Assembly: GCF_000003605.2 (NCBI RefSeq)
Contig: NW_003123310.1
Location: forward strand, 1-20,954
Length of the DNA: 20,954 nucleotides
Source of the DNA: Saccoglossus kowalevskii
Lineage: Eukaryota; Hemichordata; Enteropneusta; Harrimaniidae
Reading direction: 5' to 3'
Below the pieces are notes generated by a model that saw nothing but the letters and a program-made list of their open reading frames with translations, was not told the origin of the DNA and searched no databases. This document shows positions 1-19,457 of this stretch, in pieces (positions within the stretch are counted from its first letter, which is position 1; the number at the start of each line of letters is the position of its first letter). The position numbers and the translations under genes are program-made.

Positions 1-28
1 TCAATTTCAAACATCCAAAAACATGAAA
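1..28 (+). repeat. Tail of the preceding satellite unit
   Basis: These bases match the end of the other units (the stretch after the ATCGAT motif, ending in AACATGAAA) and run into unit 1 without a break. Confidence 0.9.
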
Positions 29-974
29 TAGCCGCCAAGTCGGCTTAATTTCAAATAATCCATGCACTTTTGTGGTTAGGTCACCGGCGAATGTTTAAAG
101 TAAAGTGCAATCGGGCGTGGTTAGTATTTGCATGGGAGACTCCCTGAATAAACGACCTTTTGAATTTATTTTTTTTGTTTCATCACACATCTATAAAACA
201 TATAAAACAACGATCCTGCATTCGTTTTTACAGTGATGTCAATCATTTATAGTGAAACATCGTAGAATTTTTGTAACTATTATAATTAATGCAAAGTGTT
301 TTAATTCCTTTTAATTTTCAAGGACAATTTGTTCATGCCGTCGGCACGTAGTGGGCTTTAAGCTGTTAACACACCGTGCAAAGTTGTTCAAAGTAAATGC
401 AAAGTTGTACAAAGTTATTGCAAAGTTGGTTGATGTATTTGTATATATGACCTAAGTCGTTGGCATATAGAAAGGCGCAGTTGTAAAGTCGACATATTAA
501 ATAAAAGTTAGTTGAAAGCAGCCTATAGATGTTCTCATGAGCTGAGTGTAAAATGTTAGAAACAAGTGTGCACATTTTAGGGAAAACGAACGAAATGTTG
601 GCGGAGTTGCTTTTATATTTAACCTAAGTCATTGTCATGACAACCCCGCAGTTAAATTTCGAAAACATTAAGTAAATGTATCGATAATGCCTCATATATA
701 GGGAGAAAATCACAACAGCCAACTGAAAAATCGACAACAAACTACATACAAAGTTGCAAAAAGCGATTGCAAAGTTGGTAGTTTCATTCGTGATTTTTAC
801 CTGTGATATCATAATAACAAGTCCCATAATTAAATGTTCGAAAATATGAATAAATATTTCTGAAAAAGCTGTTAAATTACCGTAGTGTTACTCCAAGCTT
901 GTAGAGGTCATAGGTCAATTCTAGAATGTACCAATGCTAGCAATATCGATTTCAAAACATCCAAAAACATGAAA
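29..974 (+). repeat. Satellite unit 1 (946 bp, group I)
   Basis: Complete unit. Group I marks are CCAAGTCGG in the first hairpin, CCTTTTGAA before the T run, and AAAGTTGTTC. It has the 12-base palindrome TTGTCATGACAA at 632-643. The minus strand is open for 67 codons at 624-827, a chance frame of the repeat and not called as a gene. Confidence 0.96.
97..176 (+). pseudogene. 5S rRNA-derived segment, unit 1
   Basis: Box A-like AAAGTAAAG, then TCGGGCGTGG, then a 5S-like GTTAGT-ATTTGCATGGGAGAC with one substitution more than unit 3. It ends at a T8 run (169-176), a possible Pol III stop. The 5S 5' half is not recognisable. Confidence 0.75.
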
Positions 975-975
975 T

Positions 976-991
976 AGCCGCCAAGTCGGCT
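976..991 (+). repeat. Short inverted repeat AGCCG-N6-CGGCT (reference unit)
   Basis: Five-base stem with a six-base loop just upstream of the 5S-like segment, present in most units. Units 8, 19, 21 and 23 carry single-arm changes without compensation, so selection on a hairpin is not supported. Confidence 0.5.
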
Positions 992-1042
992 TAATTTCAA
1001 ATAATCCATGCACCTTTGTGGTTAGGTCACCGGCGAATGTTT

Positions 1043-1123
1043 AAAGTAAAGTGCAATCGGGCGTGGTTTAGTACTTGCATGGGAGACTCCCTGAATAAAC
1101 GACCTTTTGAATTTATTTTTTTT
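1043..1123 (+). pseudogene. 5S rRNA-derived segment with Pol III-like internal promoter, unit 2
   Basis: In a 5S gene, box A, the intermediate element and box C recruit TFIIIA and then TFIIIC/B, and a T run ends transcription. Aligned to my recalled animal 5S consensus, the box A region (positions 50-64) matches at 8 of 15, the intermediate element (67-72) at 5 of 6, and box C (80-97) at 15 of 18. GTTAGTACTT is exact. This unit has one extra T in GGTTTAGT. A T8 run at 1116-1123 begins 38 bases after the start of CATGGGAGAC, against about 37 from the matching base to the 3' end of 5S. The 5' half is unrecognisable apart from a CATGCACC-like match at about the right place. This is a 5S relic, not a working rRNA gene. 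Whether it is transcribed cannot be seen. Confidence 0.78.
1116..1123 (+). terminator. T8 run, possible Pol III terminator (reference unit)
   Basis: Pol III stops at four or more T. This run sits where the end of a 5S gene would be. Equivalent runs of T4-T9 occur in all units except 17 and 20. Confidence 0.5.
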
Positions 1124-1136
1124 GTTTCATCACACA

Positions 1137-1160
1137 TCTATAAAACATATAAAAACAACG
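1137..1160 (+). other. Near-invariant TATAAAA-rich block (reference unit)
   Basis: Two TATAAAA-like motifs lie back to back 14 bases after the T run, and almost every unit keeps them (unit 20 lacks the region by deletion). They resemble a TATA box, but no gene follows. In an AT-rich repeat this may mean nothing. Confidence 0.3.
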
Positions 1161-1166
1161 ATCCTG

Positions 1167-1240
1167 CATTCGTTTTTACAGTGATGTCAATCATTTATAG
1201 TGAAAAATCGTAGAAGTTTGTAACTGTTTTAATTAATGCA
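1167..1240 (+). repeat. Internal subrepeat D (reference unit)
   Basis: CATTCG, TTTTTAC and GTGATGTCA, then ATAGTGAAAAATCG, parallel CATTCG, TTTTTACC, GTGATATCA and ATAGTTAAAAGTTCG in subrepeat C. This supports common descent within the unit, with clear but eroded similarity. Confidence 0.55.
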
Positions 1241-1282
1241 AAGTGTTTTAATTCTTTCTAATTTTACAGGACAAGTTGTTCA

Positions 1283-1293
1283 TGCCGTCGGCA
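1283..1293 (+). repeat. GC-rich dyad TGCCGTCGGCA (reference unit)
   Basis: An 11-base odd palindrome, the most GC-rich spot outside the 5S-like core, kept in nearly all units. Units 18 and 19 carry changes in it. It could be a protein site or simple shared ancestry. Confidence 0.45.
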
Positions 1294-1365
1294 CGTAGTG
1301 GGTTTTAAGCTGTTAACACACCGTGCAACGATGTTCAAAGTGAATGCAAAGTTGTACAAAGTTAT

Positions 1366-1477
1366 TGCAAAGTTGGTAGATGTATTTTTATATATGACCT
1401 AAGTAGTTGGCATATAGAAACGCGCAGTTGTAAAGTCGACGAATTAAATAAAAGTTAGTTGAAAGCAGCCTATAGAT
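1366..1477 (+). repeat. Internal subrepeat A (reference unit)
   Basis: Starts TGCAAAGTTGGTAG, with ACCTAAGT at 1397 and then CGCAGTTGTAAAGTCGA and AATAAAAGTTA. It aligns with subrepeat B over ACCTAAGT, GCAGTT, TCGA, ATTAA and TAAA. Upstream, copies of (T)GCAAAGTTG and shorter CAAAGT forms are clustered. Confidence 0.7.
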
Positions 1478-1542
1478 GTTCTCATGAGGTGAGTGTAAAA
1501 TGTTAGAAACAAGTGTGCAAATTTTTGGGAAAACGAAAGAAA

Positions 1543-1646
1543 TGTTGGCGGAGTTGCTTTTATATTTAACCTAAGCCATTGTCATGACACCCCCGCAGTT
1601 AAATTTTGATTACATTAAGTAGATGTATCGATAATGCCTTATATAT
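1543..1646 (+). repeat. Internal subrepeat B (reference unit)
   Basis: ACCTAAG at 1569, then the palindrome TGTCATGACA, then CCCGCAGTTAAA. In most units this is followed by TTTCGAAAACATTAAGTAAA. It aligns well with A (172 bp earlier) and C (177 bp later). Confidence 0.75.
1580..1589 (+). repeat. Palindrome TGTCATGACA in subrepeat B (reference unit)
   Basis: Perfect 10-base palindrome, extended to 12 bases (TTGTCATGACAA) in unit 1 and most units from 5 onward. Unit 19 breaks it with one substitution. Confidence 0.6.
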
Positions 1647-1711
1647 AGGCAGAATATCACAACAGCCAAATGAAAAATCGACAACAAACTACATAGAAAG
1701 TTGCAAAAAGC

Positions 1712-1834
1712 GATTGCAAAGTTGGTAGTTTCATTCGCGCTTTTTACCTGTGATATCATATTAACACGTCCCATAATTAAATGTTCGAAAATATGAATAA
1801 ATATTTCTGAAAAAGCTGTTAAATTACCGTAATG
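1712..1834 (+). repeat. Internal subrepeat C (reference unit)
   Basis: Starts TTGCAAAGTTGGTAG like A, then TTTTTACCTGTGATATCA, CCATAATTAAATGTTCG, and AAAATATGAATAAATA. The last part aligns closely with the TTCGAAAACATTAAGTAAA part of B. It contains the palindrome TGATATCA. Confidence 0.75.
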
Positions 1835-1847
1835 TTATTCCAAGCTT

Positions 1848-1921
1848 GTAGAGGTCATAGGTAAATTCTAGAATGTACCAATGCCAGCAATATCGATTAC
1901 AAAACATCCAAAAACATGAAA
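1848..1921 (+). repeat. Internal subrepeat E (reference unit)
   Basis: Contains ATTCTAGAAT (a 10-base palindrome) and then GTACC at 1874. Most group II units continue GTGCCAGCGATATCGATTTT with an 8-base palindrome, then TTAAAACATCCAAAAACATGAA, which parallels GTTAAAAGTTCGAAAATATGAA in C. Confidence 0.5.
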
Positions 1922-2867
1922 TAGCCGCCAAGTCGGCTTAATTTCAAATAATCCATGCATCTTTGTGGTTAGGTCACCGGCGAATGTTTAAAGTAAAGCG
2001 CAATCGGGCGTGGTTAGTACTTGCATGGGAGACTCCCTGAATAAACGACCTTTTGAATTTATTTTTTTTGTTTCATCACACATCTATAAAACATATAAAA
2101 CAACGATCCTGCATTCGTTTTTACAGTGATGTCAATCATTTATAGTGAAAAATCGTAGAAGTTTTGTAACTATTTTAATTAATGCAAAGTGTTTTAATTC
2201 CTTCTAATTTTCCAGGACAAGTTGTTCATGCCGTCGGCACGTATTGGGTTTTAAGCTGTTAACACACCGTGCAAAGTTGTTCAAAGTAAATGCAAAGTTG
2301 TACAAAGTTATTGCAAAGTTGGTAGATGTATTTGTGTATATGGCCTAAGTAGTTGGCATATAGAAAGGCGCAGTTGTAAAGTCGACATATTAAATAAAAG
2401 TTAGTTGAAAGCAGCCTATAGATGTTCTCATGAGGTGAGTGTAAAATGTTAGAAACAAGTGTGCAAATTTTTGGGAAAACGAAAGAAATGTTGGCGGAGT
2501 TGCTTTTATATTTAACCTAAGTCATTGTCATGACACCCCCGCAGTTAAATTTCGAAAACATTAAGTAAATGTATCGATAATGCCTCATATATAAGCAGAA
2601 AATCACAACAGCCAACTGAAAAATCGACAACAAACTACATACAAAGTTGCAAAAAACGATTGCAAAGTTGGTAGTTTCATTCGTGATTTTTACCTTTGAT
2701 ATCATATTAACAAGTCCGATAATTAAATGTTCGAAAATATGAATAAATATTTCTGAAAAAGCTGTTAAATTACCGTAGTTTTACTCCAAGCTCGTAGAGG
2801 TCATAGGTCAATTCTAGAATGAACCTGTGCCAGCGATGTCGATTTTAAAACATCGAAAAACATTAAT
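1922..2867 (+). repeat. Satellite unit 3 (946 bp, group I)
   Basis: Complete group I unit. Like unit 2 it reads GAGGTGAGTG where most units read GAGCTGAGTG. The end, about 2820-2867, departs from its neighbours (GATGTCGATTTT, CATCGAAAAACATTAATTAG). Confidence 0.96.
1990..2069 (+). pseudogene. 5S rRNA-derived segment, unit 3
   Basis: The cleanest copy. Bases aligned to 5S positions 62-97 match the recalled animal consensus at 32 of 36 without a gap. T8 run at 2062-2069. Confidence 0.8.
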
Positions 2868-3814
2868 TAGCCGCCAATTCGGCTTAATTTCAAATAAACA
2901 ATGCAGCTTTGTGGTTAGGTCACCGACGAATGTTTAAAGTAAAGCGCAATTGGGCGTGGTTACTACTTGCATGGGAGACTCACTGAATAAACGACCTGTT
3001 GAATTTATTTTTTTTTGTTTCATCACACATCTATAAAACATATAAAACAACGATCCTGCATTCTTTTTTACAGTGATGTCAATCATTTATAGTGAAAAAT
3101 CGTAGAATTTTTGTAACTATTTTAATTAATGCAAAGTGTTTTAATTCCTTCTAATTTTCAAGGACAAGTTGTACATGCCGTCGGCACGTAGTGGGTTTTA
3201 AGCTGTTAACACACCGTGCAAAGTTGTTCAAAGTGAATGCAAAGTTGTACAAAGTTATTGCAAAGTTGGTAGATGTATTTGTATATATGACCTAAGTAGT
3301 TGGCATATAGAAAGGCGCAGTTGTAAAGTCGACATATTAAATAAAATTTAGTTGAAAGCAGCCTATAGATGTTCTAATGAGCTGAGTGTAAAATGTTAGA
3401 AACAAGTGTGCAAATTTTTGGGAAAACGAAAGAAATGTTGGCGGAGTTGCTTTTATATTTAAACTAAGTCATTGTCATGACACCCCCGGAGTTAAATTTC
3501 GAAAAAATTAAGTAAATGTATCGATAATGCCTCATATATAAGCAGAATATCACAACAGCCAACTGAAAAATCGACAACAAACTACATACAAAGTTGCAAA
3601 AAGCGATTGCAAAGTTGGTAGTTTCATTCGTGATTTTTACCTGTGATATCATATTAACACGTCCCATAATTAAATGTTCGAAAATATGAATAAATATTTC
3701 TGAAAAAGCTGTTAAATTACCGTAGTGTTACTCCAAGCTTGTAGAGGTCATAGGTCAATTCTAGAATGTGCCAATGCCAGCGATATCGATTTCAAAACAT
3801 CCAAAAACATGAAA
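2868..3814 (+). repeat. Satellite unit 4 (947 bp, group I)
   Basis: Complete group I unit with some private changes (GGTTACTACTT in the 5S-like core, GTTGTACATG before the GC dyad). The minus strand is open at 3464-3667. Confidence 0.96.
2936..3016 (+). pseudogene. 5S rRNA-derived segment, unit 4
   Basis: TTGGGCGTGG and GGTTACTACTTGC each carry one further substitution. Box C is followed by ACTCACTG. T9 run at 3008-3016. Confidence 0.72.
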
Positions 3815-4756
3815 TAGCCGCCAAGTCGGCTTAACTTCAAATAATCCATGCACCTTTGTGGTTAGGTCACCGGCGAATGTTTAAAGTAAAGTGCAATTGG
3901 GCGTGGTTAGTACTTGCATGGGAGACTCACTGAATAATCGACCATTTGACTATATTTTTTTTTGTTTCATCACACATCTATAAAACATATAAAACAACGA
4001 TCCTGCATTCTTTTTTACAGTGATGTCAATCATTTATAGTGAAAAATCGCAGAATTTTTGTAACTATTTTAATTAATGCAAAGTGTTTTAATTCCTTCTA
4101 ATTTTCAAGGACAAGTTGTTCATGCCGTCGGCACTTAGTGGGTTTTATGCTGTTAACACACCGTGCAAAGATGTTCAAAGTGAATGCAAAGTTGTACAAA
4201 GTTATTGCAAAGTTGGTAGATGTATTTTTATATATGACCTAAGTAGTTGGCATATAGAAACGCGCAGTTGTAAAGTCGACAAATTAAATAAAAGTTAGTT
4301 GAAAGCAGCCTATAGATGTCACATGAGCTGTGTGTAAAATGTAGAAAAAAGTGTGCAAAGTTTGGGAAACGAAAGAAATGTTGGCGGAGTTACTTTTATA
4401 TTTAACATAAGTCATTGTCATGACAACACCACAGTTAAATTTCGAAAACATTAAGTAAATGTATCGATAATGCCTCATATATTAGCAGAATATGACAACA
4501 GCCAACTGAAAAATCGACAACAAACTACATAGAAAGTTGCAAAAAGCGATTGCAAAGTTGGTAGTTTCATTCGTGATTTTTACCTGTGATATCATATTAA
4601 AAAATCCCATAGTTAAATGTTCGAAAATATGAATAAATATTTCTGAAAAAGCTGTTAAATTACCGTAGTGTTACTCCAAGCTTGTAGAGGTCATCGGTCA
4701 ATTCTAGAAGGTATTTGTGCCAGCGATATCGATTTAAAAGTGCTGAAAACATGTAA
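3815..4756 (+). repeat. Satellite unit 5 (942 bp, group I to II junction)
   Basis: The first half follows group I and shares variants with unit 2. From about 4310 it has group II marks: TCACATGAGCTGTGTG, CACCACAG and TATTAGCAGAATATGAC. Its end carries CATCGGTCAATTCTAGAAGG, shared only with the ends of units 13 and 17. It is best read as a recombinant unit. Confidence 0.93.
3883..3963 (+). pseudogene. 5S rRNA-derived segment, unit 5
   Basis: Box C core intact (TACTTGCATGGGAGAC). The 3' part is altered (AATCGACCATTTGACTATA). T9 run at 3955-3963. Confidence 0.72.
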
Positions 4757-5700
4757 TAGCCGCCAATTCGGCTTAATTTCATATAATCCATGCAGCTTTG
4801 TGGTTAGGTTACCGACGAATGTTTAAAGTAAAGTGCAATCGGGCGTGGTTATTTCTTGCATGGGAGACTCCCTGATTAAACGACCTGTTGAATTTATTTT
4901 TTTGTTTCATCACACATCTATAAAACATATAAAACAACGATCATGCATTCTTTTTTACAGTGATGTCAATCATTTATAGTGAAAAATCGTAGAATTTTTG
5001 TAACTATTTTAATTAATGCAAAGTGTTTTAATTCCTTCTAATTTTCAAGGACAAGTTGTTCATGCCGTCGGCACGTAGTGGGTTTTGAACAGTTAACACA
5101 CCGTGCGAAGTTGTTCAAAGTGAATGCAAAGTTGTACAAAGTTATTGCAAAGTTGGTAGATGTATTTGTATATATGACCTAAGTAGTTGGCATATAGAAA
5201 GGCGCAGTTGTAAAGTCGACAAATTTAATAAAAGTTAGTTGAAAGCAGCCTATAGATGTTCACATGAGCTTTGTGTAAAATGTTAGAAAAAAGTGTGCAA
5301 AGTTTGGGAAAACGAAAGAAATGTTGGCGGAGTTACTTTTATATTTATCCTAAGTCATTGTCATGACAACACCACAGTTAAATTTCGAAAACATTAAGTA
5401 AATGTATCGATAATGCCTCATATATTAGCAGAATATGACAACAGCCAACTGAAAAATCGACAACAAACTACATAGAAAGTTGCAAAAAGCGATTGCAAAG
5501 TTGGTAGTTTAATTCGTGATTTTTACCTGTGATATCATATTAACAAGTCCCATAGTTAAAAGTTCGAAAATATGAATAAATATTTCTGAAAAAGCTGATA
5601 AATTACCGTAGTGATACACCAAGCTTGTACAGGTCATAGGTCAATTCTAGAATGTACCTGTGTCACCGATATCGATTTTTAAACATCCAAAAACTTGAAA
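4757..5700 (+). repeat. Satellite unit 6 (944 bp, group II)
   Basis: Private marks are GGTTAGGTTACC, GGTTATTTCTTGC, GTTTTGAACAGTTAAC, GAGCTTTGTGTAAAATG and TTTATCCTAAG. All of them recur in unit 13, seven units away. Confidence 0.96.
4825..4903 (+). pseudogene. 5S rRNA-derived segment, unit 6
   Basis: TCGGGCGTGG kept, GTTAGTAC changed to GTTATTTC, box C core kept. T7 run at 4897-4903. Confidence 0.72.
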
Positions 5701-6644
5701 TAGCCGCCAATTCGGCTTAATTTCAAATAATACATGCAGCTTTGTGGTTAGGTCAACGACGAATGTTTAAAGTAAAGTGAAATCGGGCGTGGTTAGTTCT
5801 TGCATGGGAGACTCCCTGATTAAACGACCTGTTGAATTTATTTTTTTGTTTCATCACATATCTATAAAACATATAAAACAACGATCCTGCATTCTTTTTT
5901 ACAGTGATGTCAATCATTTATACTGTAAAATCGTAGAATTTTTGTAACTATTTTAATTAATGAAAAGTGTTTTAATTCCTTCTAATTTTCAAGTACAAGT
6001 TGTTCATGCCGTCGGCACGTAGTGGGTTTTAAGCTGTTAACACACCGTGCGAAGTTGTTCAAAGTGAATGCAAAGTTGTACAAAGTTATTGCAAAGTTGG
6101 TAGATGTATTTGTATATATGACCTAAGTAGTTGGCATATAGAAAGGCGCAGTTGTAAAGTCGACAAATTAAATAAAAGTTAGTTGAAAGCAGCCTACAGA
6201 TGTTCACATGAGCTGAGTGTAAAATGTTAGAAAACAGTGTGCAATGTTTGGGAAAACGAAAGAAATGTTGGCGGAGTTACTTTTATATTTAACCTAAGTC
6301 ATTGTCATGACAACCCCGGAGTTAAATTTCGAAAACATTAAGTAAATGTATCGATAATGCCTCATATATTAGCAGAATATGACAACAGCCAACTGAAAAA
6401 TCGACAACAAACTTCATACAAAGTTGCAAAATACGATTGCAAAGTTGGTAGTTTAATTCGTGATTTTTACCTGTGATATCATATTAACAAGTCCCATAGT
6501 TAAAAGTTCGAAAATATGAATAAATATTTCTGAAAAAGCTGTTAAATTACCGTAGTGATACACCAAGCTTGTACAGGTCATAGGTAAATTCTAGAATGTA
6601 CCTGTGCCAGCGATATCGATTTTTAAACATCCAAAAACTTGAAA
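5701..6644 (+). repeat. Satellite unit 7 (944 bp, group II)
   Basis: Complete unit with GGTCAACGACG, GTGAAATCGGG, TTATACTGTAAAATCG and CCTACAGATG. The last is shared with units 10 and 14. Confidence 0.96.
5769..5847 (+). pseudogene. 5S rRNA-derived segment, unit 7
   Basis: Group II form: GTGAAATCGGGCGTGG, GTTAGTTCTTGCATGGGAGAC. T7 run at 5841-5847. Confidence 0.73.
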
Positions 6645-7587
6645 TAGCCGCCAATTCGACTTAATTTCAAATAATTCATGCAGCTTTGTGGTTAGGTCAA
6701 CGACGAATGTTTAAAGTAAAGTGAAATCGGGCGTGGTTAGTTCTTGCATGGGAGACTCCCTGATTAAACGACCTGTTGAATTTACTTTTTTGTTTCATTA
6801 CATATCTATAAAACATATAAAACAACGATCCTGCATTCTTTTTACAGTGATGTCAATCATTTATAGTGTAAAATCGTAGAATTTTTGTAACTATTGTAAT
6901 TAATGAAAAGTGTTTTAATCCCTTCTAATTTTCAAGGACAAGTTGTTCATGCCGTCGGCACGTAGTGGGTTTTAAGCTGTTAACACACCGTGCAAAGTTG
7001 TTCAAAATGAATGCAAAGTTGTACAAAGTTATTGCAAAGTTGGTAGATGTATTTGTATATATGACCTAAGTAGTTGGCATATAGAAACGCGCAGTTGTAA
7101 AGTCGACAAATTAAATAAAAGTTAGTTGAAAGCAGCCTATAGATGTTCACATGAGCTGAGTGTAAAATGTTAGAAAAAAGTGTGAAAAGTCTGGGAAAAC
7201 GAAAGAAATGTTGGCGGAGTTGCTTTTATATTTAACCTAAGTCATTGTCATGACAACCCCGCAGTTAAATTTCGAAAATATTAAGTAAATGTATCGATAA
7301 TGCCTCATATATTAGCAGAATATGACAACAGCCAACTGAAAAATCGACAACAAACTACATACAAAGTTGCAAAATACGATTGCAAAGTTGGTAGTTTCAT
7401 TCATGATTTTTATTAAAGATATCATATTAACAAGTCCCATACATAAAAGTTAGAAAATAAGAATAAATATTTGCGAAAAAGGCGTTAAAGACAGGTAGTG
7501 ATACTCCATCCTTATAGAGGTCATAGGTCAATTCAAGAATGTACCTGTGCCAGCGATATCGATTTTAAAACATCCAAAAACATGAAA
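6645..7587 (+). repeat. Satellite unit 8 (943 bp, group II, with divergent patch)
   Basis: Shares GTGAAAAGTCTGGG, GAAAATATTAAG and CTTATAGAGGTCATAGG with unit 16, about 7547 bp downstream. Subrepeat C of this unit (7403-7510) carries about 20 substitutions not seen in other units, without net indels. Confidence 0.95.
6713..6791 (+). pseudogene. 5S rRNA-derived segment, unit 8
   Basis: Group II form with intact box C core. The T run is interrupted upstream by a C (TTTACTTTTTT), leaving T6 at 6786-6791. Confidence 0.72.
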
Positions 7588-8531
7588 TAGCCGCCAATTC
7601 GGTTTAATTTCAAATAATTCATGCAGCTTTGTGGTTAGGTCAACGACGAATGTTTAAAGTAAAGTGAAATCGGGCGTGGTTAGTTCTTGCATGAGAGACT
7701 CCCTGATTAAACGACCTGTTGAATTTATTTTTTTGTTTCATCACACATCTATAAAACATATAAAACAACGATCCTGCATTCTTTTTTACAGTGATGTCAA
7801 TCATTTATACTGTAAAATCGTAGAATTTTTGTAACTATTTTAATTAATGAAAAGTGTTTTAATTCCTTCTAATTTTCAAGTACAAGTTGTTCATGCCGTC
7901 GGCACGTAGTGGGTTTTAAGCTGTTAACACACCGTGCGAAGTTGTTCAAAGTGAATGCAAAGTTGTACAAAGTTATTGGAAAGTTGGTAGATGTATTTGT
8001 ATATATGACCTAAGTAGTTGGCATATAGAAACGCGCAGTTGTAAAGTCGACAAATTAAATAAAAGTTAGTTGAAAGCAGCCTATAGACGTTCACATGAGC
8101 TGTGTGTAAAATGTTAGAAAAAAGTGTTCAAAGTTTGGGAAAACGAAAGAAATGTTGGCGGAGTTACTTTTATATTTAACCTAAGTCATTGTCATGACAA
8201 CACCACAGTTAAATTTCGAAAACATTAAGTAAATGTATCGATAATGCCTCATATATTAGCAGAATATGACAACAGCCAACTGAAAAATCGACAACAAACT
8301 ACATACAAAGTTGCAAAAAGCGATTGCAAAGTTGGTAGTTTCATTCGTGATTTTTACCTGTGATATCATATTAACAAGTCCCATAGTTAAAAGTTCAAAA
8401 ATATGAATAAATATTTCTGAAAAAGCTGTTAAATTACCGTAGTGTTACTCCAAGCTTGTAGAGGTCATAGGTCAATTCTAGAATGTACCTGTGCCAGCGA
8501 TATCGATTTTAAGACATCCAAAAACATAAAA
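7588..8531 (+). repeat. Satellite unit 9 (944 bp, group II)
   Basis: CATGAGAGAC at 7690 is shared with unit 18. TTATACTGTAAAATCG and the CACCACAG variant are shared with unit 17. GTTCAAAAATATG near its end is shared with unit 15. Confidence 0.96.
7656..7734 (+). pseudogene. 5S rRNA-derived segment, unit 9
   Basis: Group II form. One extra change in box C (ATGAGAGAC). T7 run at 7728-7734. Confidence 0.7.
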
Positions 8532-9475
8532 CAGCCGCCAATTCGGCTTAATTTCAAATAATCCATGCAGCTTTGTGGTTAGGTCACCGACGAATGTTTA
8601 AAGTAAAGTGAAATCGTTCGTGGTTAGTTCTTGCATGGGAGACTCCCTGATTAAACGACCTGTTGAATTTATATTTTTGTTTCATCACACATCTATAAAA
8701 CATATAAAACAACGATCCTGCATTCTTTTTTACAGTGATGTCAATCATTTATAGTGTAAAATCGTAGAATTTTTGTAACTATTGTAATTAATGAAAAGTG
8801 TTTTAATTCCTTCTAATTTTCAAGTACAAGTTGTTCATGCCGTCGGCACGTAGTGGGTTTTAAGCTGTTAACACACCGTGCGAAGTTGTTCAAAGTGAAT
8901 GCAAAGTTGTACAAAGTTATTGCAAAGTTGGTAGATGTATTTGTATATATGACCTAAGTAGTTGGCATTTAGAAAGGCGCAGTTGTAAAGTCGACAAATT
9001 AAATAAAAGTTAGTTGAAAGCAGCCTACAGATGTTCACATGAGCTGAGTGTAAAATGTTAGAAAAAAGTGTGCAATGTTTGGGAAAACGAAAGAAATGTT
9101 GGCGGAGTTACTTTTATATTTAACCTAAGTCATTGTCATGACAACACCGCAGTTAAATTTCGAAAACATTAAGTAAATGTATCGATAATGCCTCATATAT
9201 TAGCAGAATATGACAACAGCCAACTGAAAAATCGACAACAAACTACATACAAAGTTGCAAAAAGCGATTGCAAAGTTGGTAATTTCATTCGTGATTTTTA
9301 TCTGTGATATCATATTAACAAATCCCATAGTTAAAAGTTCGAAAATATGAATAAATATTTCTGAAAAAGCTGTTAAATTACCGAAGTGTTACTCCAAGCT
9401 TGTAGAGGTCATGGGTCAATTCTAGAATGTACCTGTGTCAGCGATATCGATTTTAAAACATCCAAAAACATAAAA
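8532..9475 (+). repeat. Satellite unit 10 (944 bp, group II)
   Basis: Starts CAGCCGCC instead of TAGCCGCC, preceded by CATAAAA, as in units 11, 12 and 16. GGCATTTAGAAAGG and CCTACAGATG are shared with unit 14. Confidence 0.96.
8600..8678 (+). pseudogene. 5S rRNA-derived segment, unit 10
   Basis: TCGGGCG reads TCGTTCG just before the intermediate element, as in unit 12. Box C core intact. The T run is reduced to T5 (8674-8678). Confidence 0.7.
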
Positions 9476-10422
9476 CAGCCGCCAATTCGGCTTAATTTCA
9501 AATAATCCATGCAGCTTTGTGGTTAGGTCACCGACGAATGTTTAAAGTAAAGTAAAGTGAAATCGGTCGTGGTTAGTCTTGCATGGGAGACTCCTGATTA
9601 AACGACCTGTTGAATTTATTTTTTTGTTTCATCACACATCTATAAAACATATAAAACAACGATCCTGCACTCTTTTTTACAGTGATGTCAATTATTTATA
9701 CTGAAAAATCGTAGAATTTTTGTAACTATTTTAATAAATGAAAAGTGTTTTAATTCCTTCTAATTTTCAAGTACAAGTTGTGCATGCCGTCGGCACGTAG
9801 TGGGTTTTAAGCTGTTAACACACCGTGCGAAGTTGTTCAAAGTGAATGCAAAGTTGTACAAAGTTATTGCAAAGTTGGTAGATGTATTTGTATATATGAC
9901 CTAAGTAGTTGGCATATAGAAACGCGCAGTTGTAAAGTCGACAAATTAAATAAAAGTTAGTTGAAAGCAGCCTATAGATGTTCACATGAGCTGTGTGTAA
10001 AATGTTAGAAAAAAGTGTGCAAAGTTTGGGAAAATGAAAGAAATGTTGGCGGAGTTACTTTTATATTTAACCTAAGTCATTGTCATGACAACACCACAGT
10101 TAAATTTCGAAAACATTAAGTAAATGTATCGATAATGCCTCATATATTAGCAGAATATGACAACAGCCAACTGAAAAATCGACAACAAACTACATACAAA
10201 GTTGCAAAAAGCGATTGCAAAGTTGGTAGTTTCATATGTGATTTTTACCTGTGATATCATATTAACAAGTCCCATAGTTAAAAGTTCGAAAATATGAATA
10301 AATATTTCTGAAAAAGCTGTTAAATTACCGTACTGTTACTCCAAGCTTGTAGAGGTCATAGGTCAATTCTAGAATGTACCTGTGCCAGCGATATCGATTT
10401 TAAAACATCCAAAAACATAAAA
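9476..10422 (+). repeat. Satellite unit 11 (947 bp, group II)
   Basis: Carries a 5-base tandem duplication in the box A-like region (AAAGT repeated, 9544-9555). CTGCACTC and CAATTATTTATACTG are shared with unit 21. Confidence 0.96.
9544..9625 (+). pseudogene. 5S rRNA-derived segment, unit 11
   Basis: The AAAGT duplication lengthens the distance from box A to box C. One base is missing in GGTTAGTCTTGC and one C in GACTCCTG. T7 run at 9619-9625. Confidence 0.7.
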
Positions 10423-11363
10423 CAGCCGCCAATTCGGCTTAATTTCAAATAATCCATGCAGCTTTGTGGTTAGGTCACCGACGAATGTTTAAAGTAAAGT
10501 GAAATCGTTCGTGGTTAGTTCTTGCATGGGAGACTCCCTGATTAAACGACCTGTTGAATTTATTTTTTTGTTTCATCACACATCTATAAAACATATAAAA
10601 CAACGATCCTGCATTCTTTTTTACAGTGATGTCAATCATTTATAGTGTAAAATCGTAGAATTTTTGTAACTATTGTAATTAATGAAAAGTGTTTTAATTC
10701 CTTCTAATTTTCAAGTACAAGTTGTTCATGCCGTCGGCACGTAGTGGGTTTTAAGCTGTTACACACCGTGCGAGTTGTTCAAGTGAATGCAAAGTTGTAC
10801 AAAGTTATTGCAAAGTTGGTAGATGTATTTGTATATATGACCTAAGTAGTTGGCATATAGAAACGCGCAGTTGTAAAGTCGACAAATTAAATAAAAGTTA
10901 GTTGAAAGCAGCCTATATATGTTCACATGAGCTGAGTGTAAAATCTTAGAAAAAAGTGTGCAAAGTTTGGGAAAACGAAAGAAATGTTGGCGGAGTTGCT
11001 TTTATATTTAACCTAAGTCATTGTCATGACAACCCCGCAGTTAAATTTCGAAAACGTTAAGTAAATGTATCGATAATACCTCATATATAAGCAGAATATC
11101 ACAACAGCCAACTGAAAAATTGACAACAAACTACATACAAAGTTGCAAAATACGATTGCAAAGTTGGTAGTTTCATTCGTGATTTTTACCTGTGATATCA
11201 TATTAACAAATCCCATAGTTAAAAGTTCGAAAATATGAATAAATATTTCTGAAAAAGCTGTTAAATTACCGTAGCGTTACTCCAAGCTTGTAGAGGTCAT
11301 AGGTCAATTCTAGAATGTACCTGTGCCAGCGATATCGATTTTAAAACATCCAAAAACATGTAA
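10423..11363 (+). repeat. Satellite unit 12 (941 bp, group II)
   Basis: Its start matches unit 10. Three single A losses occur within 33 bases (10759-10791). It has TATATAAGCAG, so the minus strand is open at 11013-11216. Confidence 0.95.
10491..10569 (+). pseudogene. 5S rRNA-derived segment, unit 12
   Basis: TCGTTCG variant as in unit 10. Box C core intact. T7 run at 10563-10569. Confidence 0.72.
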
Positions 11364-12304
11364 TAGCCGCCCATTCGGCTTAATTTCAAATAATCCATGC
11401 AGCTTTGTGGTTAGGTTACCGACGAATGTTTAAAGTAAAGTGCAATCGGGCGTGGTTATTTCTTGCATGGGAGACTCCCTGAATAAACGACTGTTCAATT
11501 TATTTTTTGTTTCATCACACATCTATAAAACATATAAAACAACGATCCTGCATTCTTTTTTACAGTGATGTCAATCATTTATAGTGAAAAATCGTAGAAT
11601 TTTTGTAACTATTTTAATTAATGCAAAGTGTTTTAATTCCTTCTAATTTTCAAGGACAAGTTGTTCATGCCGTCGGCACGTAGTGGGTTTTGAACAGTTA
11701 ACACACCGTGCGAAGTTGTTCAAAGTGAATGCAAAGTTGTACAAAGTTATTGCAAAGTTGGTAGATGTATTTGTATATATGACCTAAGTAGTTGGCATAT
11801 AGAAAGGCGCAGTTGTAAAGTCGACAAATTTAATAAAAGTTAGTTGAAAGCAGCCTATAGATGTTCACATGAGCTTTGTGTAAAATGTTAGAAAAAAGTG
11901 TGCAAAGTTTGGGAAAACGAAAGAAATGTTGGCGGAGTTACTTTTATATTTATCCTAAGTCATTGTCATGACAACACCACAGTTAAATTTCGAAAACATT
12001 AAGTAAATGTATCGATAATGCCTCATATATTAGCAGAATATGACAACAGCCAACTGAAAAATCGACAACAAACTACATAGAAAGTTGCAAAAAGCGATTG
12101 CAAAGTTGGTAGTTTCATTCGTGATTTTTACCTGTGATATCATATTAACAAATCCCATAGTTAAAAGTTCGAAAATATGAATAAATATTTCTGAAAAAGC
12201 TGTTAAATTACCGTAGTGTTACTCCAAGCTTGTAGAGGTCATCGGTCAATTCTAGAAGGTATTTGTGCCAGCGATATCGATTTAAAAGTTCTGAAAACAT
12301 GTAA
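11364..12304 (+). repeat. Satellite unit 13 (941 bp, group II)
   Basis: A close relative of unit 6, with GGTTAGGTTACC, GTTTTGAACAGTTAAC, GAGCTTTGTG and TTTATCCTAAG. Its end matches the end of unit 5 (CATCGGTCAATTCTAGAAGG). Confidence 0.96.
11432..11508 (+). pseudogene. 5S rRNA-derived segment, unit 13
   Basis: TCGGGCGTGG kept, GTTATTTCTTGC as in unit 6, box C core intact. T6 run at 11503-11508. Confidence 0.72.
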
Positions 12305-13244
12305 TAGCCGCCAATTCGGCTTAATTTCAAATAATCCATGCAGCTTTGTGGTTAGGTTACCGACGAATGTTTAAAGTAAAGTGCAATCGGGCGTGGTTAT
12401 TTCTTGCATGGGAGACTCCCTGATTAAACGACCTGTTGAATTTATTTTTTTGTTTCATCACACATCTATAAAACATATAAAACAACGATCCTGCATTCTT
12501 TTTTACAGTGATGTCAATGATTTATAGTGAAAAATCGTAGAATTTTTGTAACTATTTTAATTAATGAAAAGTGTTTTAATTCCTTCTAATTTTCAAGGAC
12601 AAGTTGTTCATGCCGTCGGCACGTAGTGGGTTTTGAACGAGTTAACACACCGTGCGAAGTTGTTCAAAGTGAATGCAAAGTGTACAAAGTTATTGCAAAG
12701 TTGGTAGATGTATTGTATATATGACTAAGTAGTTGGCATTTAGAAAGGCGCAGTTGTAAAGTCGACAAATTAAATGAAAGTTAGTTGAAAGCAGCCTACA
12801 GATGTTCACATGAGCTGAGAGTAAAATGTTAGAAAAAAGTGTGCAATGTTTGGGAAAACGAAAGAAATGTTGGCGGAGTTGCTTTTATATTTAACCTAAG
12901 TCATTGTCATGACAACCCCGCAGTTAAATTTCGAAAACATTAAGTAAATGTATCGATAATGCCACATATTAGCAGAATATGACAACAGCCAACTGAAAAA
13001 TCGACAACAAACTACATACAAAGTTGCAAAATACGATTGCAAAGTTGGTAGTTTCATTCGTGATTTTTATCTGTGATATCATATTAACAAATCCCATAGT
13101 TAAAAGTTCGAAAATATGAATAAATATTTCTGAAAAAGCTGTTAAATTACCGTAGTGATACTCCAAGCTTGTAGAGGTCATAGGTCAATTCTAGAATGTA
13201 CCTGTGCCAGCGATATCGATTTTAAAACATCCAAAAACATGAAA
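12305..13244 (+). repeat. Satellite unit 14 (940 bp, group II)
   Basis: Its start matches unit 6, eight units away. Its middle matches units 7 and 10 (CCTACAGATG, GTGCAATGTTTGGG). Three single-base losses lie within 12680-12727. Confidence 0.95.
12373..12451 (+). pseudogene. 5S rRNA-derived segment, unit 14
   Basis: Same form as unit 6. T7 run at 12445-12451. Confidence 0.72.
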
Positions 13245-14189
13245 TAGCCGCCAATTCGGCTTAATTTCAAATAATACATGCAGCTTTGTGGTTAGGTCAA
13301 CGACGAATGTTTAAAGTAAAGTGAATTCGGGCGTGGTTAGTTCTTGCATGGGAGACTCCCTGATTAAACGACCTGTTGAATTTATTTTTTTTGTTTCATC
13401 ACATATCTATAAAACATATAAAACAACCATCCTGCATTCTTTTTTACAGTGATGTCAATCATTTATAGTGAAAAATCGTAGAATCTTTGTAACTATTTTA
13501 ATTAATGAAAAGTGTTTTAATTCCTTCTAATTTTCAAGTACAAGTTGTTCATGCCGTCGGCACGTAGTGGGTTTTAAGCTGTTAACACACCGTGCGAAGT
13601 TGTTCAAAGTGAATGAAAAGTTGTACAAAGTTATTGCAAAGTTGGTAGATGTATTTGTATATATGACCTAAGTAGTTGGCATATAGAAACGCGCAGTTGT
13701 AAAGTCGACAAATTAAATAAAAGTTAGTTGAAAGCAGCCTATAGATGTTCACATGAGCTGTGTGTAAAATGTTAGAAAAAAGTGTGCAAAGTTTGGGAAA
13801 ACGAAAGAAATGTTGGCGGAGTTACTTTTATATTTAACCTAAGTCATTGTCATGACAACACCACAGTTAAATTTCGAAAACATTAAGTAAATGTATCGAT
13901 AATGCCTCATATATTAGCAGAATGTGACAACAGCCAACTGAAAAATCGACAACAAACTACATACAAAGTTGCAAAAAGCGATTGCAAAGTTGGTAGTTTC
14001 ATTCGTGATTTTTACCTGTGATATCATATTAACAAATCCCATAGTTAAAAGTTCAAAAATATGAATAAATATTTCTGAAAAAGCTGTTAAATTACCGTAG
14101 TGTTACTCCAAGCTTGTAGAGGTCATAGGTCAATTCTAGAATGTACCTGTGCCAGCGATATCAATTTTAAAACCTCCAAAAACATAAAA
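13245..14189 (+). repeat. Satellite unit 15 (945 bp, group II)
   Basis: GAGCTGTGTG with CACCACAG as in units 9, 11 and 17. Its end has GTTCAAAAATATG as in unit 9. ATATCAATTTT replaces ATATCGATTTT, breaking the CGATATCG palindrome. Confidence 0.96.
13313..13392 (+). pseudogene. 5S rRNA-derived segment, unit 15
   Basis: GTGAATTCGGGCGTGG has one private change. Box C core intact. T8 run at 13385-13392. Confidence 0.72.
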
Positions 14190-15134
14190 CAGCCGCCAAT
14201 TCGGCTTAATTTCAAATAATCCATGCAGCTTTGTGGTTAGGTCAACGACGAATGTTTAAAGTAAAGTGAAATCGGTCGTGGTTAGTTCTTGCATGGGAGA
14301 ATCCCTGATTAAACGACCTGTTGAATTTATTTTTTTGTTTCATCACACATCTATAAAACATATAAAACAACGATCCTGCATTCTTTTTTACAGTGATGTC
14401 AATCATTTATTGTGTAAAATCGTAGAATTTTTGTAACTTTTGTAATTAATGAAGTGTGTTTTAATTCCTTCTAATTTTCAAGTACAAGTTGTTCATGCCG
14501 TCGGCACGTAGTGGGTTTTAAGCTGTTAACACACCGTGCGAAGTTGTTCAAAGTGAATGCAAAGTTGTACAAAGTTATTGCAAAGTTGGTAGATGTATTT
14601 GTATATATGACCTAAGTAGTTGGCATATAGAAAACGCGCAGTTGTAAAGTCGACAAATTAAATAAAAGTTAGTTGAAAGCAGCCTATAGATGTTCACATG
14701 AGCTGAGTGTAAAATGTTAGAAAAAAGTGTGAAAAGTCTGGGAAAACGAAAGAAATGTTGGCGGAGTTGCTTTTATATTTAACCTAAGTCATTGTCATGA
14801 CAACCCCGCAGTTAAATTTCGAAAATATTAAGTAAATGTATCGATAATGCCTCATATATTAGCAGAATATGACAACAGCCAACTGAAAAATCGACAACAA
14901 ACTACATACAAAGTTGCAAAATACGATTGCAAAGTTGGTAGTTTCATTCGTGATTTTTACCTGTGATATCATATTAACAAGTCCCATAGTTAAAAGTTCG
15001 AAAATATGAATAAATATTTCTGAAAAAGCTGTTAAATTACCGTAGTGATACTCCAAGCTTATAGAGGTCATAGGTCAATTCAAGAATGTACCTGTGCCAG
15101 CGATATAGATTTTAAAACATCCAAAAACATGAAA
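14190..15134 (+). repeat. Satellite unit 16 (945 bp, group II)
   Basis: Its start resembles units 10-12. From mid-unit it matches unit 8 (GTGAAAAGTCTGGG, CTTATAGAGGTCATAGG) but lacks unit 8's divergent patch, so that patch is specific to unit 8. Confidence 0.96.
14258..14336 (+). pseudogene. 5S rRNA-derived segment, unit 16
   Basis: TCGGTCGTGG, as in unit 11. Box C reads ATGGGAGAATCCC, losing the C of GAGAC. T7 run at 14330-14336. Confidence 0.68.
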
Positions 15135-16062
15135 TAGCCGCCAATTCGGCTTAATTTCAAATAATCCATGCAGCTTTGTGGTTAGGTCAACGACGAATCT
15201 TTAAAGTAAAGTGAAATCGGGCGTGGTTAGTTCTTGCATGGGAGACTCCCTGATTAAACGATCTGTGAATTCATCACATATCTATAAAACATATAAAACA
15301 ACGATCCTGCATTCTTTTTTACAGTGATGTCAATCATTTATACTGTAAAATCGTAGAATTTTGTAACTATTTTAATTAATGAAAAGTGTTTTAATTCCTT
15401 CTAATTTTCAAGTACAAGTTGTTAATGCCGTCGGCACGTAGTGGGTTTTAAGCTGTTAACACACCGTGCGAAGTTGTTCAAAGTGAATGCAAAGTTGTAC
15501 AAAGTTATTGCAAAGTTGGTAGATGTATTTGTATATATGACCTAAGTAGTTGGCATATAGAAACGCGCAGTTGTAAAGTCGACAAATTAAATAAAAGTTA
15601 GTTGAAAGCAGCCTATAGATGTTCACATGAGCTGTGTGTAAAATGTTAGAAATAAGTGTGCAAAGTTTGGGAAAACGAAAGAAATGTTGGCGGAGTTACT
15701 TTTATATTTAACCTAAGTCATTGTCATGACAACACCACAGCTAAATTTCGAAAACATTAAGTAAATATATCGATAATGCCTCATATATTAGCAGAATATC
15801 ACAACAGCCAACTGAAAAATCGACAACAAACTACATACAAAGTTGCAAAAAGCGATTGCAAAGTTGGTAGTTTCATTCGTGATTTTTACCTGTGATATCA
15901 TATTAACAAATCCCATAGTTAAATGTTCGAAAATATGAATAAATATTTCTGAAAAAGCTGTTAAATTACCGTAGTTTCACTCCAAGCTTGTAGAGGTCAT
16001 CGGTCAATTCTAGAAGGTATTTGTGCCAGCGATATCGATTTAAAAGTTCTGAAAACATGTAA
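15135..16062 (+). repeat. Satellite unit 17 (928 bp, terminator run deleted)
   Basis: Shorter mainly because about 13 bases containing the T run and the following TGTT are missing (GTGAATTCATCAC near 15266-15278). Its middle matches unit 9, and its end carries the CATCGGTC...GAAGG variant of units 5 and 13. Confidence 0.96.
15203..15271 (+). pseudogene. 5S rRNA-derived segment without T run, unit 17
   Basis: Box C core intact, but the expected T run is gone. If these segments are transcribed by Pol III, this copy should read through into the unit. Confidence 0.7.
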
Positions 16063-17005
16063 TAGCCGCCAATTCGGCTTAATTTCAAATAATTCATGCA
16101 GCTTTGTGGTTAGGTCAACGACGAATGTTTAAAGTAAAGTGAAATCGGGCGTGGTTAGTTCTTGCATGAGAGACTCCCTGATTAAACGACCTGTTGAATT
16201 TATTTTTTTGTTTCATCACACATCTATAAAACATATAAAACAACCATCCTGCATTCTTTTTTACAGTGATGTCAATCGTTTATAGTGAAAACTCGTAGCG
16301 TTTTTGTAACTATTGTAATTAATGAAAAGTGTTTTAATTCCTTCTAATTTTCAAGTACAAGTTGTTCATGCCGTCAGCACGTAGTGGGTTTTGAGCAGTT
16401 AACACACCGTGCGAAGTTGTTCAAAGTGAATGCAAAGTTGTACAAAGTTATTGCAAAGTTGGTAGATGTATTTGTATATGACCTAAGTAGTTGGCATATA
16501 GAAACGCGCAGTTGTAAAGTCGACAAATTAAATAAAAGTTAGTTGAAAGCAACCGAAAGATGTTCTCATGAGCTGAGTGTAAAATGTTAGAAAAAAGTGT
16601 GCAAAGTTTGAGAAAACGAAAGAAATGTTGGCGGAGTTGCTTTTATATTTAACCTAAGTGATTGTCATGACAACCCCCCAGTTAAATTTCGAAAACATTA
16701 AGTAAATGTATCGATAATGCCTCATATATTCGCAGAATATCACAACAGCCAACTGAAAAATCGACAACAAACTGCATACAAATTTGCAAAAAGCGATTGC
16801 AAAGTTGGTAGTTTCATTCGTGATTTTTACCTGTGATATCATATTAACAAGTTCCATAGTTAAAAGTTCGAAAATATGAATAAATATTTCTGAAAAAAAG
16901 CTGTTAAATTACCGTAGTGTTACTCCAAGTTGTAGAGGTCATAGGTCAATTCTAGAATGTACCTGTGCCAGCGATATCGATTTTAAAACAATCAAAAACA
17001 TGAAA
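16063..17005 (+). repeat. Satellite unit 18 (943 bp, mixed)
   Basis: The 5S-like region matches unit 9, nine units earlier (CATGAGAGAC). GCAACCGAAAGATG is private and GTTCTCATGAG recalls group I. CCGTCAGCACG alters the GC dyad. The minus strand is open at 16654-16857 because TATTAGC reads TATTCGC. Confidence 0.95.
16131..16209 (+). pseudogene. 5S rRNA-derived segment, unit 18
   Basis: Group II form with ATGAGAGAC. T7 run at 16203-16209. Confidence 0.7.
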
Positions 17006-17950
17006 TAGCCGCCAATTCGACTTAATTTCAAATAATACATGCAGCTTTGTGGTTAGGCCACCGACGAATGTTTAAAGTAAAGCGCAATTGGGCGTGGTTA
17101 GTATTTGCATGGTAGACTCCCTGAATAAACGACCTGTTGAATTTATTTTGTTTGTTTCATCACACACCTATAAAACATATAAAACAACGATCTTGCATTC
17201 TTTTTACAGTGATGTCAATCAATTATAGTGAAAAATCGTAGAATATTTGTAACTATTTTAATTAATGAAAAGTGTTTTAATTCCTTCTAATTTTCAAGGA
17301 CAAGTTGTTCATGCTGTCGTCACGTAGTGGATTTTAAGCTGTTAACACACCGTGCAAAGTTGTTCAAAGTGAATGCAAAGTTGTACAAAGTTATTGCAAA
17401 GTTTGTAGATGTATTTGTATATATGACCTAAGTAGTTGGCATATAGAAACGCGCAGTTGTAAAGTCGACAAATTAAATAAAAGTTAGTTGAAAGCAGCCT
17501 ATAGATGTTCACATGAGCTGAGTGTAAAATGTTAGAAAAAAGTGTGCAAAGTTTGAGAAAACGAAAGAAATGTTGGCGGGAGTTGCTTTTATATTTAACC
17601 TAAATCATTGTTATGACAACCCCGCAGTTAAATTTCGAAAACATTAAGTAAATGTATCGATAATGCCTCATATATAAGCAGAATATCACAACAGCCAACT
17701 GAAAAATCGACAACAAACTACATACAAAGTTGCAAAAAGCGATTGCAAAGTTGGTAGTTTCATTCGTGATTTTTACCTGTGATATCATATTAACAAGTCC
17801 CATAGTTAAAAGTTCGAAAATATGAACAAATATTTCTGAAAAAGCTGTTAAATTACCGTAGCGTTACTCCAAGCTTGTAGAGGTCATAGGTAAATTCTAG
17901 AATGTACCTGTGCCAGCGATATCGATTTTAAAACATCCAAAAACATGAAA
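17006..17950 (+). repeat. Satellite unit 19 (945 bp, mixed)
   Basis: Combines group I-like marks (GCGCAATTGGG, CTGAATAAACG, AAAGTTGTTC, TATATAAGC) with group II flanks. The GC dyad reads TGCTGTCGTCA and the B palindrome reads TTGTTATGACAA, so both are broken here. The minus strand is open at 17600-17803. Confidence 0.95.
17074..17149 (+). pseudogene. 5S rRNA-derived segment, unit 19
   Basis: TTGGGCGTGG, GTTAGTATTTGC, and ATGGTAGAC in box C. The T run is cut to T4 (17146-17149) by a G, then TTTG. Confidence 0.68.
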
Positions 17951-18513
17951 TAGCCGCCAATTCGGCTTAATTTCAAATAATCCATGGAGCTTTGTGGTTA
18001 GGTTACCGACGAATGTTTAAAGTAAAGTGCAATCCGACGTGGTTAGTACTTGCATGGGAGACTATAGATGTTCACATGAGCTGAGTGTAAAATGTTAGAA
18101 AAAAGTGTGCAATGTTTGGGAAAACGAAAGAAATGTTGGCGGAGTTGCTTTTATATTTAACCTAAGTCATTGTCATGACAACCCCGCTGTTAAATTTCGA
18201 AAACATTAAGTAAATGTATCGAATAATGCCTCATATATTAGCAGAATATCACAACAGCCAACTGAAAAATCGACAACAAACTACATACAAAGTTGCAAAA
18301 TACCATTGCAAAGTTGGTAGTTTCATTCGTGATTTTTACCTGTGATATCATATTAACAAGTCCCATAGTTAAAAGTTCGAAAATATGAATAAATATTTCT
18401 GAAAAAGCAGTTAAATTACCGTAGTGTTACTCCAAGCTTGTAGAGGTCATAGGTCAATTCTAGAATGTACCTGTGCCAGCGATATCGATTTTAAAACATC
18501 CAAAAACATGAAA
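17951..18513 (+). repeat. Satellite unit 20 (563 bp, internal deletion of about 382 bp)
   Basis: After CATGGGAGACT at 18053-18063 the sequence jumps to ATAGATGTTCACATGAG. Measured on unit 19 (17118 to 17500), 382 bp are missing: the 5S 3' end, the T run, subrepeat D, the GC dyad and subrepeat A. The two source sites share only CT at the junction. Confidence 0.95.
18019..18063 (+). pseudogene. 5S rRNA-derived segment, truncated, unit 20
   Basis: Box A-like part, TCCGACGTGG and GTTAGTACTTGCATGGGAGAC are present. The 3' end and T run are removed by the unit deletion. Confidence 0.72.
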
Positions 18514-19457
18514 TAACCGCCAATTCGGCTTAATTTCAAATAATTCATGCAGCTTTGTGGTTAGGTCAACGACGAATGTTTAAAGTAAAGTGAAACCGGG
18601 CGTGGTTAGTTCTTGCATGGGAGACTCCCTGATTAAACGACCTGTTGAATTTATTTTTTTGTTTCATCACACATCTATAAAACATATAAAACAACGATCC
18701 TGCACTCTTTTTTACAGTGATGTCAATTATTTATACTGTAAAATCGTAGAATTTTTGTAACTATTTTAATTATTGAAAAGTGTTTTAATTCCTTCTAATT
18801 TTCAAGTACAAGTTGTTCATGCCGTCGGCACGTAGTGGGTTTTAAACTGTTAACAAACCGTGCGAAGTTGTTCAAAGTGAATGCAAAGTTGTAAAAAGTT
18901 ATTGCAAAGTTGGTAGATGTATTTGTATATATGACCTAAGTTGTTGGCATATAGAAACGCGCAGTTGTAAAGTCGACAAATTAAATAAAAGTTAGTTGAA
19001 AGCAGCCTATAGATGTTCACATGAGCTGAGTGTAAAATGTTAGAAAAAAGTGTGCAATGTTTGGGAAAACGAAAGAAATGTTGGCGGAGTTGCTTTTATA
19101 TTTAACCTAAGTCATTGTCATGACAACCCCGCTGTTAAATTTCGAAAAGATTAAGTAAATGTATCGATAATGCCTCATATATTAGCAGAATATCACAACA
19201 GCCAACTGAAAAATCGACAACAAACTACATACAAAGTTGCAAAAAGCGATTGCAAAGTTGGTAGTTTCATTCGGGATTATTACCTGTGACATCATATTAA
19301 CAAGTCCCATAGTTAAAAGTTCGAATGTATGAATAAATATTTCTGAAAAAGCTGTTAAATTACCGTAGCGTTACTCCAAGCTTGTAGAGGTCATAGGTCA
19401 ATTCTAGAATGTACCTGTGCCAGCGATATCGATTTTAAAACATCCAAGAACATGAAA
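18514..19457 (+). repeat. Satellite unit 21 (944 bp, group II)
   Basis: Starts TAACCGCC, which breaks the AGCCG stem. CTGCACTC and CAATTATTTATACTG match unit 11. Confidence 0.96.
18582..18660 (+). pseudogene. 5S rRNA-derived segment, unit 21
   Basis: AACCGGGCGTGG has one private change. Box C core intact. T7 run at 18654-18660. Confidence 0.72.

Follow-up and report, generated by a model that had tools for sequence, protein, structure and literature searches.

The 20,954-nucleotide stretch of Saccoglossus kowalevskii DNA analysed here (hereafter the window) is, to judge from its letters, a 5S-derived satellite array whose unit has been reduced mainly to the promoter part of the gene. The unit almost certainly descends from a copy of the host 5S rRNA gene. 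What is best kept of that gene are the segments corresponding to the box A core, the intermediate element and box C, together with a T run; the first third of the gene matches no better than background, other parts have decayed to some extent, and folding predicts no 5S-like RNA structure. The putative elements of a type-1 RNA polymerase III (Pol III) promoter are present at their native spacing, with the T run at the position of the terminator.

The array (1..20954, + strand), which we call S944, comprises 23 5S-bearing units of about 944 bp and fills the whole contig (C1592). Among the 22 intervals between the 23 5S-like segments, 20 measure 940-949 bp and the other two 928 and 563 bp, and mean pairwise identity is 94.9% among the 21 cut units that were aligned, the short unit among them. 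G+C content is 0.47 in the 5S part and 0.33 in the remainder of the unit. It is a long head-to-tail array, part of whose unit is homologous to 5S and distinct from the functional gene, as expected of a 5S-derived satellite, a class also characterised by a heterochromatic or centromeric location. The window contains no tRNA, and the CENP-B core pattern had no exact match in either orientation. When the source assembly (572 Mb, 4830 contigs) was queried with the satellite, the best 40 of 3757 first-look candidates were scored; on five further contigs the fetched stretches are covered by the same ~944-bp unit, and a 25-letter core with T at 5S position 77 has 285 exact occurrences in the genome. 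Exact patterns gave zero matches in viral contigs and a species-genome collection; one 16-mer matched once in each of 48 viral contigs, which we took as chance, and nothing similar to the S944 unit was found among phages and plasmids.

Six animal 5S genes formed the reference set for a 5S model built on sequence alone. Its 23 best matches are the 23 units of the window, all on the + strand (E 6.7e-9 to 1e-3), and its best match beyond them has E 6; each unit thus carries a 5S-like segment, as a first-pass annotation of the window had claimed. That annotation had also suggested a search with a 5S covariance model, which succeeded in part: a structure-bearing model of the six genes (R1) finds 22 of the 23 units, at E values up to 1.4, but Rfam fails. 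It gives no match at E≤1 in the window as a whole, and a 251-base piece scores 16.4 bits (E 0.61), below the gathering cut-off of 38 bits that the listed host genes pass at 105-113 bits. The reported ungapped match of unit 3 to 5S positions 62-97 of human and Xenopus is exact (32/36, at 2004-2039), and the best other 36-mer on either strand, with the segments masked, reaches 22/36. The range of homology is wider than had been stated, about 36-113 ungapped in the best units by the alignment of the sequence-only model. This ungapped alignment also replaced an insertion-ridden box A that gapped alignments had produced. Gapped scores over the whole 5S gene gave P 4e-7 to 0.015 depending on the reference, C. 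elegans being the weakest, and gapped extension tests over the six references were mixed (left P 0.005-0.30, right 0/200 to 0.15). We make no case for a conserved RNA structure: strong pair counts come from the structure-fitted alignment, and the single-strand fold of 1940-2064 is no stabler than shuffles, 185 of 200 of which fold at least equally well (z +1.34).

The species' own 5S genes give the closest comparison. A genome search with RF00001 yielded 18,217 candidates, the best 47 of which were scored; all of these lie above the cut-off, at 105-113 bits, and stand in tandem on C3485, C2212, and C3801. From four fetched stretches (L083-L086), 29 host genes were selected by the core with at most 2 errors, and all 29 share the same letters over 62-91, which are the letters of unit 3 (30/30). 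This comparison, which the first-pass annotation had proposed, agrees with its 5S assignment. C82, common to unit 3 and host, is G in all six references, and G68, likewise common to both, is different in five of the six; given this identity over 62-91, two of the four mismatches of unit 3 to human and Xenopus are the host's own letters. The genome holds two classes of ordinary 5S rDNA array in which the gene is nearly identical; units measure 1126-1139 bp on C3485, whereas on C2212 and C3801 most are about 1579 bp long and some 1245-1335 bp.

Unit 3 has a stretch co-linear with the 5S gene and ending in the T run (1943..2069, + strand, 1943 being 5S position 1), and this is the RNA that would be expected from a 5S-type promoter. 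The putative box A core, 5S 49-57, lies at 1991..1999 (+ strand) and reads AAGTAAAGC, compared with AAGTTAAGC in the host (8/9); with the segments masked, no other register on either strand exceeds 7/9. The block equal to host 5S 62-91 follows on the same strand at 2004..2033 (30/30) and takes in the intermediate element and most of box C. Beyond it, the + strand equivalent of 5S 92-119 (2034..2061) is decayed, with 3/6 matches over 92-97 and 11/24 over 98-121 (P 0.018), and leads into the T8 (2062..2069, + strand) that had been noted before, at 5S position 120, the place of the Pol III terminator in 5S genes. Elsewhere unit 3 matches the host gene at 8/35 positions over 1-35, which is background, at 5/13 over 36-48, and at 0/4 over 58-61; taken in wider sections, the counts are 13/26 over 36-61 and 14/30 over 92-121.

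Across the six references, 67 positions are invariant. Unit 3 keeps 34 of the 40 that fall within 36-97 and 7 of the 27 outside (one-sided Fisher 1.3e-6), and this, together with the 30/30 match to the host, bears out the earlier claim that the internal promoter is best preserved. The same test gives p below 1e-3 for 21 units; the other two of the 23, units 2 and 11, have an indel in the core. Over 36-61 unit 3 keeps 11 of 15 invariant sites, a count that no other register in the window (32,770 compared) attains. T runs of four or more letters begin at 5S position 118-122 in 21 of the 23 window units, and of 163 segments taken from the window and from 14 fetched stretches, 159 have such a run at the terminator position. 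Unit 3 ranks among the best copies: its exact 24-letter core is found in 43 of these 163 segments, and 50 have the same core with T at position 77.

Within the S944 family, the 5S part varies no less than the remainder of the unit, and present constraint gives no clear sign. Among 118 units sampled from six contigs, variability over 36-97 exceeds that of 87% of windows and variability in box A that of 98%, and box C with the intermediate element is mildly quiet (27th percentile). In the window alone, 62-97 stands at the 82nd percentile and box C at the 28th; the six letters of the intermediate element are unchanged in 21 of 21 aligned window units, the 92nd percentile for intactness. That the 5S part is not more conserved within the family counts against a present function. 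Over 62-91, 20 of the 118 units are identical to the host, 47 have one difference, 34 two, and 17 three. Position 77 is T in 59/118 units and A, the host letter, in 57/118; because the A-bearing units are more diverse (0.054 vs 0.037), the ancestral letter was probably the host A.

The block at 18039..18062 (+ strand) belongs to the shortened unit, with the interval of 563 bp, in which the terminator part is gone as a result of a deletion that starts directly 3' of the box C core (GGGAGACT joined to ATAGATG). About 381 bp are missing there (18039-18070). The junction string is found in 2 of the 163 segments, and on contig C1321 (L069, about 1158-1219) the match to the 5S model likewise ends at position 91; the deletion probably recurs on another contig. 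Furthermore, four CAAAG boxes lie on one strand with spacings of 11, 10, and 11 bp at 2270-2321 and at the equivalent place in other units, and the window holds 147 CAAAG and 26 CTTTG. With an 80-nt window, this stretch is the least variable part of the unit (P 0.0045 in 21 units, 0.022 in 118); with 60- and 100-nt windows the values in 118 units are non-significant (P 0.17 and 0.11). It could be a helically phased protein site.

The block also occurs in other satellites of the same genome. We used as bait a pattern that bars the host gene (C at 92) as well as S944 (T at 92), which has 260 exact matches in the genome, with 0 for the reversed control, and took 12 loci among the matches listed for it and seven loci from a second pattern. 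Three relatives of S944, namely S728, S940, and a copy on the 223-kb contig C1414, were found by exact block match, a procedure to which block-less families are invisible; as the block served as bait, its conservation across these families is biased upward. This bait played no part in the choice of S944 or of the host gene. S728 is a 728-bp satellite (10 units, 96.9% identical) that is 67.5% identical to S944 over 680 aligned sites, S940 (four units, 97.4% identical) is a sister of S944 at 86.6%, and the C1414 copy is S728-like. In all four long satellites, the block matches the host at 29-30 of 30 positions and the T run begins at 5S position 115-120. S728 and the C1414 copy have in common T66, a non-host letter. 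Given that S728 aligns to host 5S 35-106 with 77.8% identity over 72 positions, the ancestral 5S copy must have extended beyond the block.

No 30-nt window is better conserved between S728 and S944 than the block (28/30), a value reached by 4 of 650 windows, which start 0-3 letters off, and the same is true between S728 and S940 (29/30; 4 of 646 windows equal). Between S940 and S944 the block is nothing special, its value being reached by 98 of 910 windows. The 95-nt flanks of the block are 66-80% identical. In the comparison of loci across families, the row of L106 is shifted by an indel. On C496 an array with the T77 core is spaced at about 923 bp and C585 has one interval of 324 bp; there are probably more subfamilies than those named in this account.

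The remaining family, S216, has a unit of 216 bp in which the 5S-like part is of full length (89 units, 86.7% identical), and its consensus is 90.8% identical to the host 5S gene. It is found at loci L103, L087, L093-L101, and L104, on contigs C3892, C111, C404, C576, C588, C2220, C2424, and C3927. Rfam matches on L103 are over the cut-off in 14 of 14 cases; at E 0.1, it finds nothing on the sampled S728, S940, and C1414 loci (L091, L102, L109), S216 alone being matched. At E 0.01 the S216 consensus and the long units have the 5S part alone in common. The block of S216 is no quieter than its other 5S parts (0.091 vs 0.078 and 0.085; 29th percentile in 103 units). In these 103 units, which were picked by their spacer, variability is 0.08-0.13 in the 5S part and 0.15 elsewhere. 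The helix I ends of the consensus (GCCTACTGC / GCAGTAGGC) are fully complementary though altered from the host, and S216 may represent a second, ancient class of 5S genes.

Retention of the promoter part at its native spacing, together with the terminator, suggests that for a period the function as a Pol III promoter was of importance. We give an even chance to the reading that the unit holds a Pol III/TFIIIA promoter module that was retained for some time and is now drifting. On 5S genes, assembly proceeds from TFIIIA through TFIIIC to TFIIIB. If the satellite followed this pathway, TFIIIA would bind box C, TFIIIC and TFIIIB would come next, and Pol III would make a satellite RNA of ~120 nt, stopping at the T run. 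The 5S copy would then have been kept for a while for its promoter, not for its RNA, be it inside a Pol III-driven mobile element or in the satellite itself, and the present array would be drifting close to neutrally, although TFIIIA binding or transcription may persist in some units. In favour of promoter retention, we count the 30/30 match over 62-91 against 8/35 over 1-35, and the position of the block as the most conserved window between S728 and S944. Counted against it are the change from A to T at position 77 in half of the units (59/118), the unremarkable block between S940 and S944 and in S216, and the capacity of gene conversion to keep the block alike.

Such conversion, by which 5S or S216 arrays would overwrite short patches of the long satellites with no need for promoter function, is in our view an unlikely explanation. 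It would account for a block that is host-identical to the letter despite decayed adjoining 5S positions; the 5S and S216 arrays are possible donors within the genome, and recombination between 5S rDNA and the satellite PcP190 has been reported or proposed in frogs (PMC11675491, PMC4877019). The ends of converted patches should, however, be random, whereas the kept parts match promoter elements and 58-61 is lost between them (0/4), and T66 in S728 and the C1414 copy, not being the host letter, means that the host gene has not reset these two. A passive history, in which a captured 5S fragment or pseudogene was spread by satellite amplification and the uneven match reflects chance and decay, we likewise hold to be improbable. 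The lack of present constraint within S944 and of special quiet in the S216 block is what it would predict, and it agrees with an ancestor that probably had the host letter at 77 (diversity of A units 0.054, of T units 0.037). Uniform decay nevertheless does not account for 30/30 beside 13/26 (36-61) and 14/30 (92-121); S728 has a longer and likewise uneven 5S stretch, and since about a third of the sequence differs between S728 and S944, a single shared capture, if there was one, would not be recent.

Less probable still is an origin from a retroelement that has a 5S promoter and came to be arrayed in tandem, either SINE3, a dispersed element with a 5S head, a LINE-like tail and target duplications, or an LTR miniature of the Cassandra or Ajax kind. 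This route is compatible with promoter retention, so that the probabilities we assign to the two overlap. Ajax retains just box A, the intermediate element, and box C of 5S (PMC10886601), and tandem Cassandra arrays are known (PMC7215508). Yet the window holds no open reading frame of at least 80 aa, and neither the LTR pair nor the primer-binding site of a terminal-repeat miniature (TRIM) with a Pol III promoter was found: the best candidate primer-binding site matches 9/12 letters of one of 20 tRNA ends (an incomplete set, either strand), and in 1600-3000 the longest direct repeat within a unit is 55 nt at 76-78%, with nothing LTR-like there. A T run downstream of the promoter would moreover be ill-suited to a SINE. 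Finally, it is highly improbable that a 5S gene and its own spacer simply decayed into the satellite unit, along the lines suggested for 5SHindIII: its length of 944 bp is comparable to that of the host 5S units and the G+C contrast recalls gene and spacer, but in Smith-Waterman comparisons the host 5S spacers match the satellite remainder at shuffle level (P 0.40, 0.92, 0.68, and 0.87 for four units, 60 shuffles each), though a spacer may have diverged past recognition, and the 5S part is all that the S216 consensus has in common with the long units.

The CENP-B box is common to different satellites. Extending the promoter-retention reading by analogy, we tentatively suggest, as a conjecture of low probability, that the diverged satellites of 216, 728, 940, and 944 bp are united by a host-derived 30-nt TFIIIA site resembling the CENP-B box in this respect; recruitment of TFIIIA and Pol III, or a short RNA, would maintain the arrays, and the site would track the host 5S sequence. 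The usual description of 5S-derived satellites is that of arrays of pseudogenes; in this case the best-kept piece is the Pol III control core, which equals the host gene down to a letter absent from all six animal references and is common to several satellites. Selection of satellites for transcription-factor binding and Pol III transcription of satellites thereby become testable.

Several known systems invite comparison. PcP190 of hyloid frogs has a ~190-bp unit with a 120-bp 5S-like part ~67-70% similar to 5S, and comes in several types with a common 5S part and a differing remainder (PMC11675491, PMC4877019). Like S944, it is a tandem 5S-derived satellite, and recombination with 5S rDNA has been suggested for it; unlike PcP190, S944 has a 944-bp unit that keeps mainly the promoter part, with 5S 1-35 at background and a core that, in its best copies, agrees with the host at 30/30 positions. 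The first-pass annotation was thus right to see a 5S-derived satellite with a long unit and partly right to call it another PcP190, to which the 216-bp satellite of this genome comes closer. The centromeric 5SHindIII-DNA of Hoplias malabaricus similarly combines a 95-bp 5S-like segment with a satellite unit, of 360 bp (PMC2713275), but its other 265 bp resemble a 5S spacer, whereas the host spacers tested here do not match S944. Donax (box positions, spacer composition), Cycloramphus (5S pseudogenes and satellites) and the elements Helenus and HaSE3 provide further background, and no satellite like S944 was described among the matches listed in our literature searches. In Ajax of ribbon worms, a 421-434-bp LTR miniature with a primer-binding site and 5-bp target duplications (PMC10886601), 5S is represented by the same box A, intermediate element, and box C part as in S944, but the LTRs and primer-binding site of Ajax were not found here. 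Cassandra, whose 5S promoter is reported to mirror mutations of the host 5S gene (PMC10853983), resembles S944 in that its repeat, which may be arrayed in tandem, includes a promoter and a terminator of the 5S type (PMC7215508), and differs in belonging to plant LTR elements with a primer-binding site, of which S944 showed none. Given that 5S-derived satellites were already known from PcP190 and 5SHindIII, what is unusual in the present case is that mainly the promoter has been kept, that it is identical to the host, and that it is found in several satellites.
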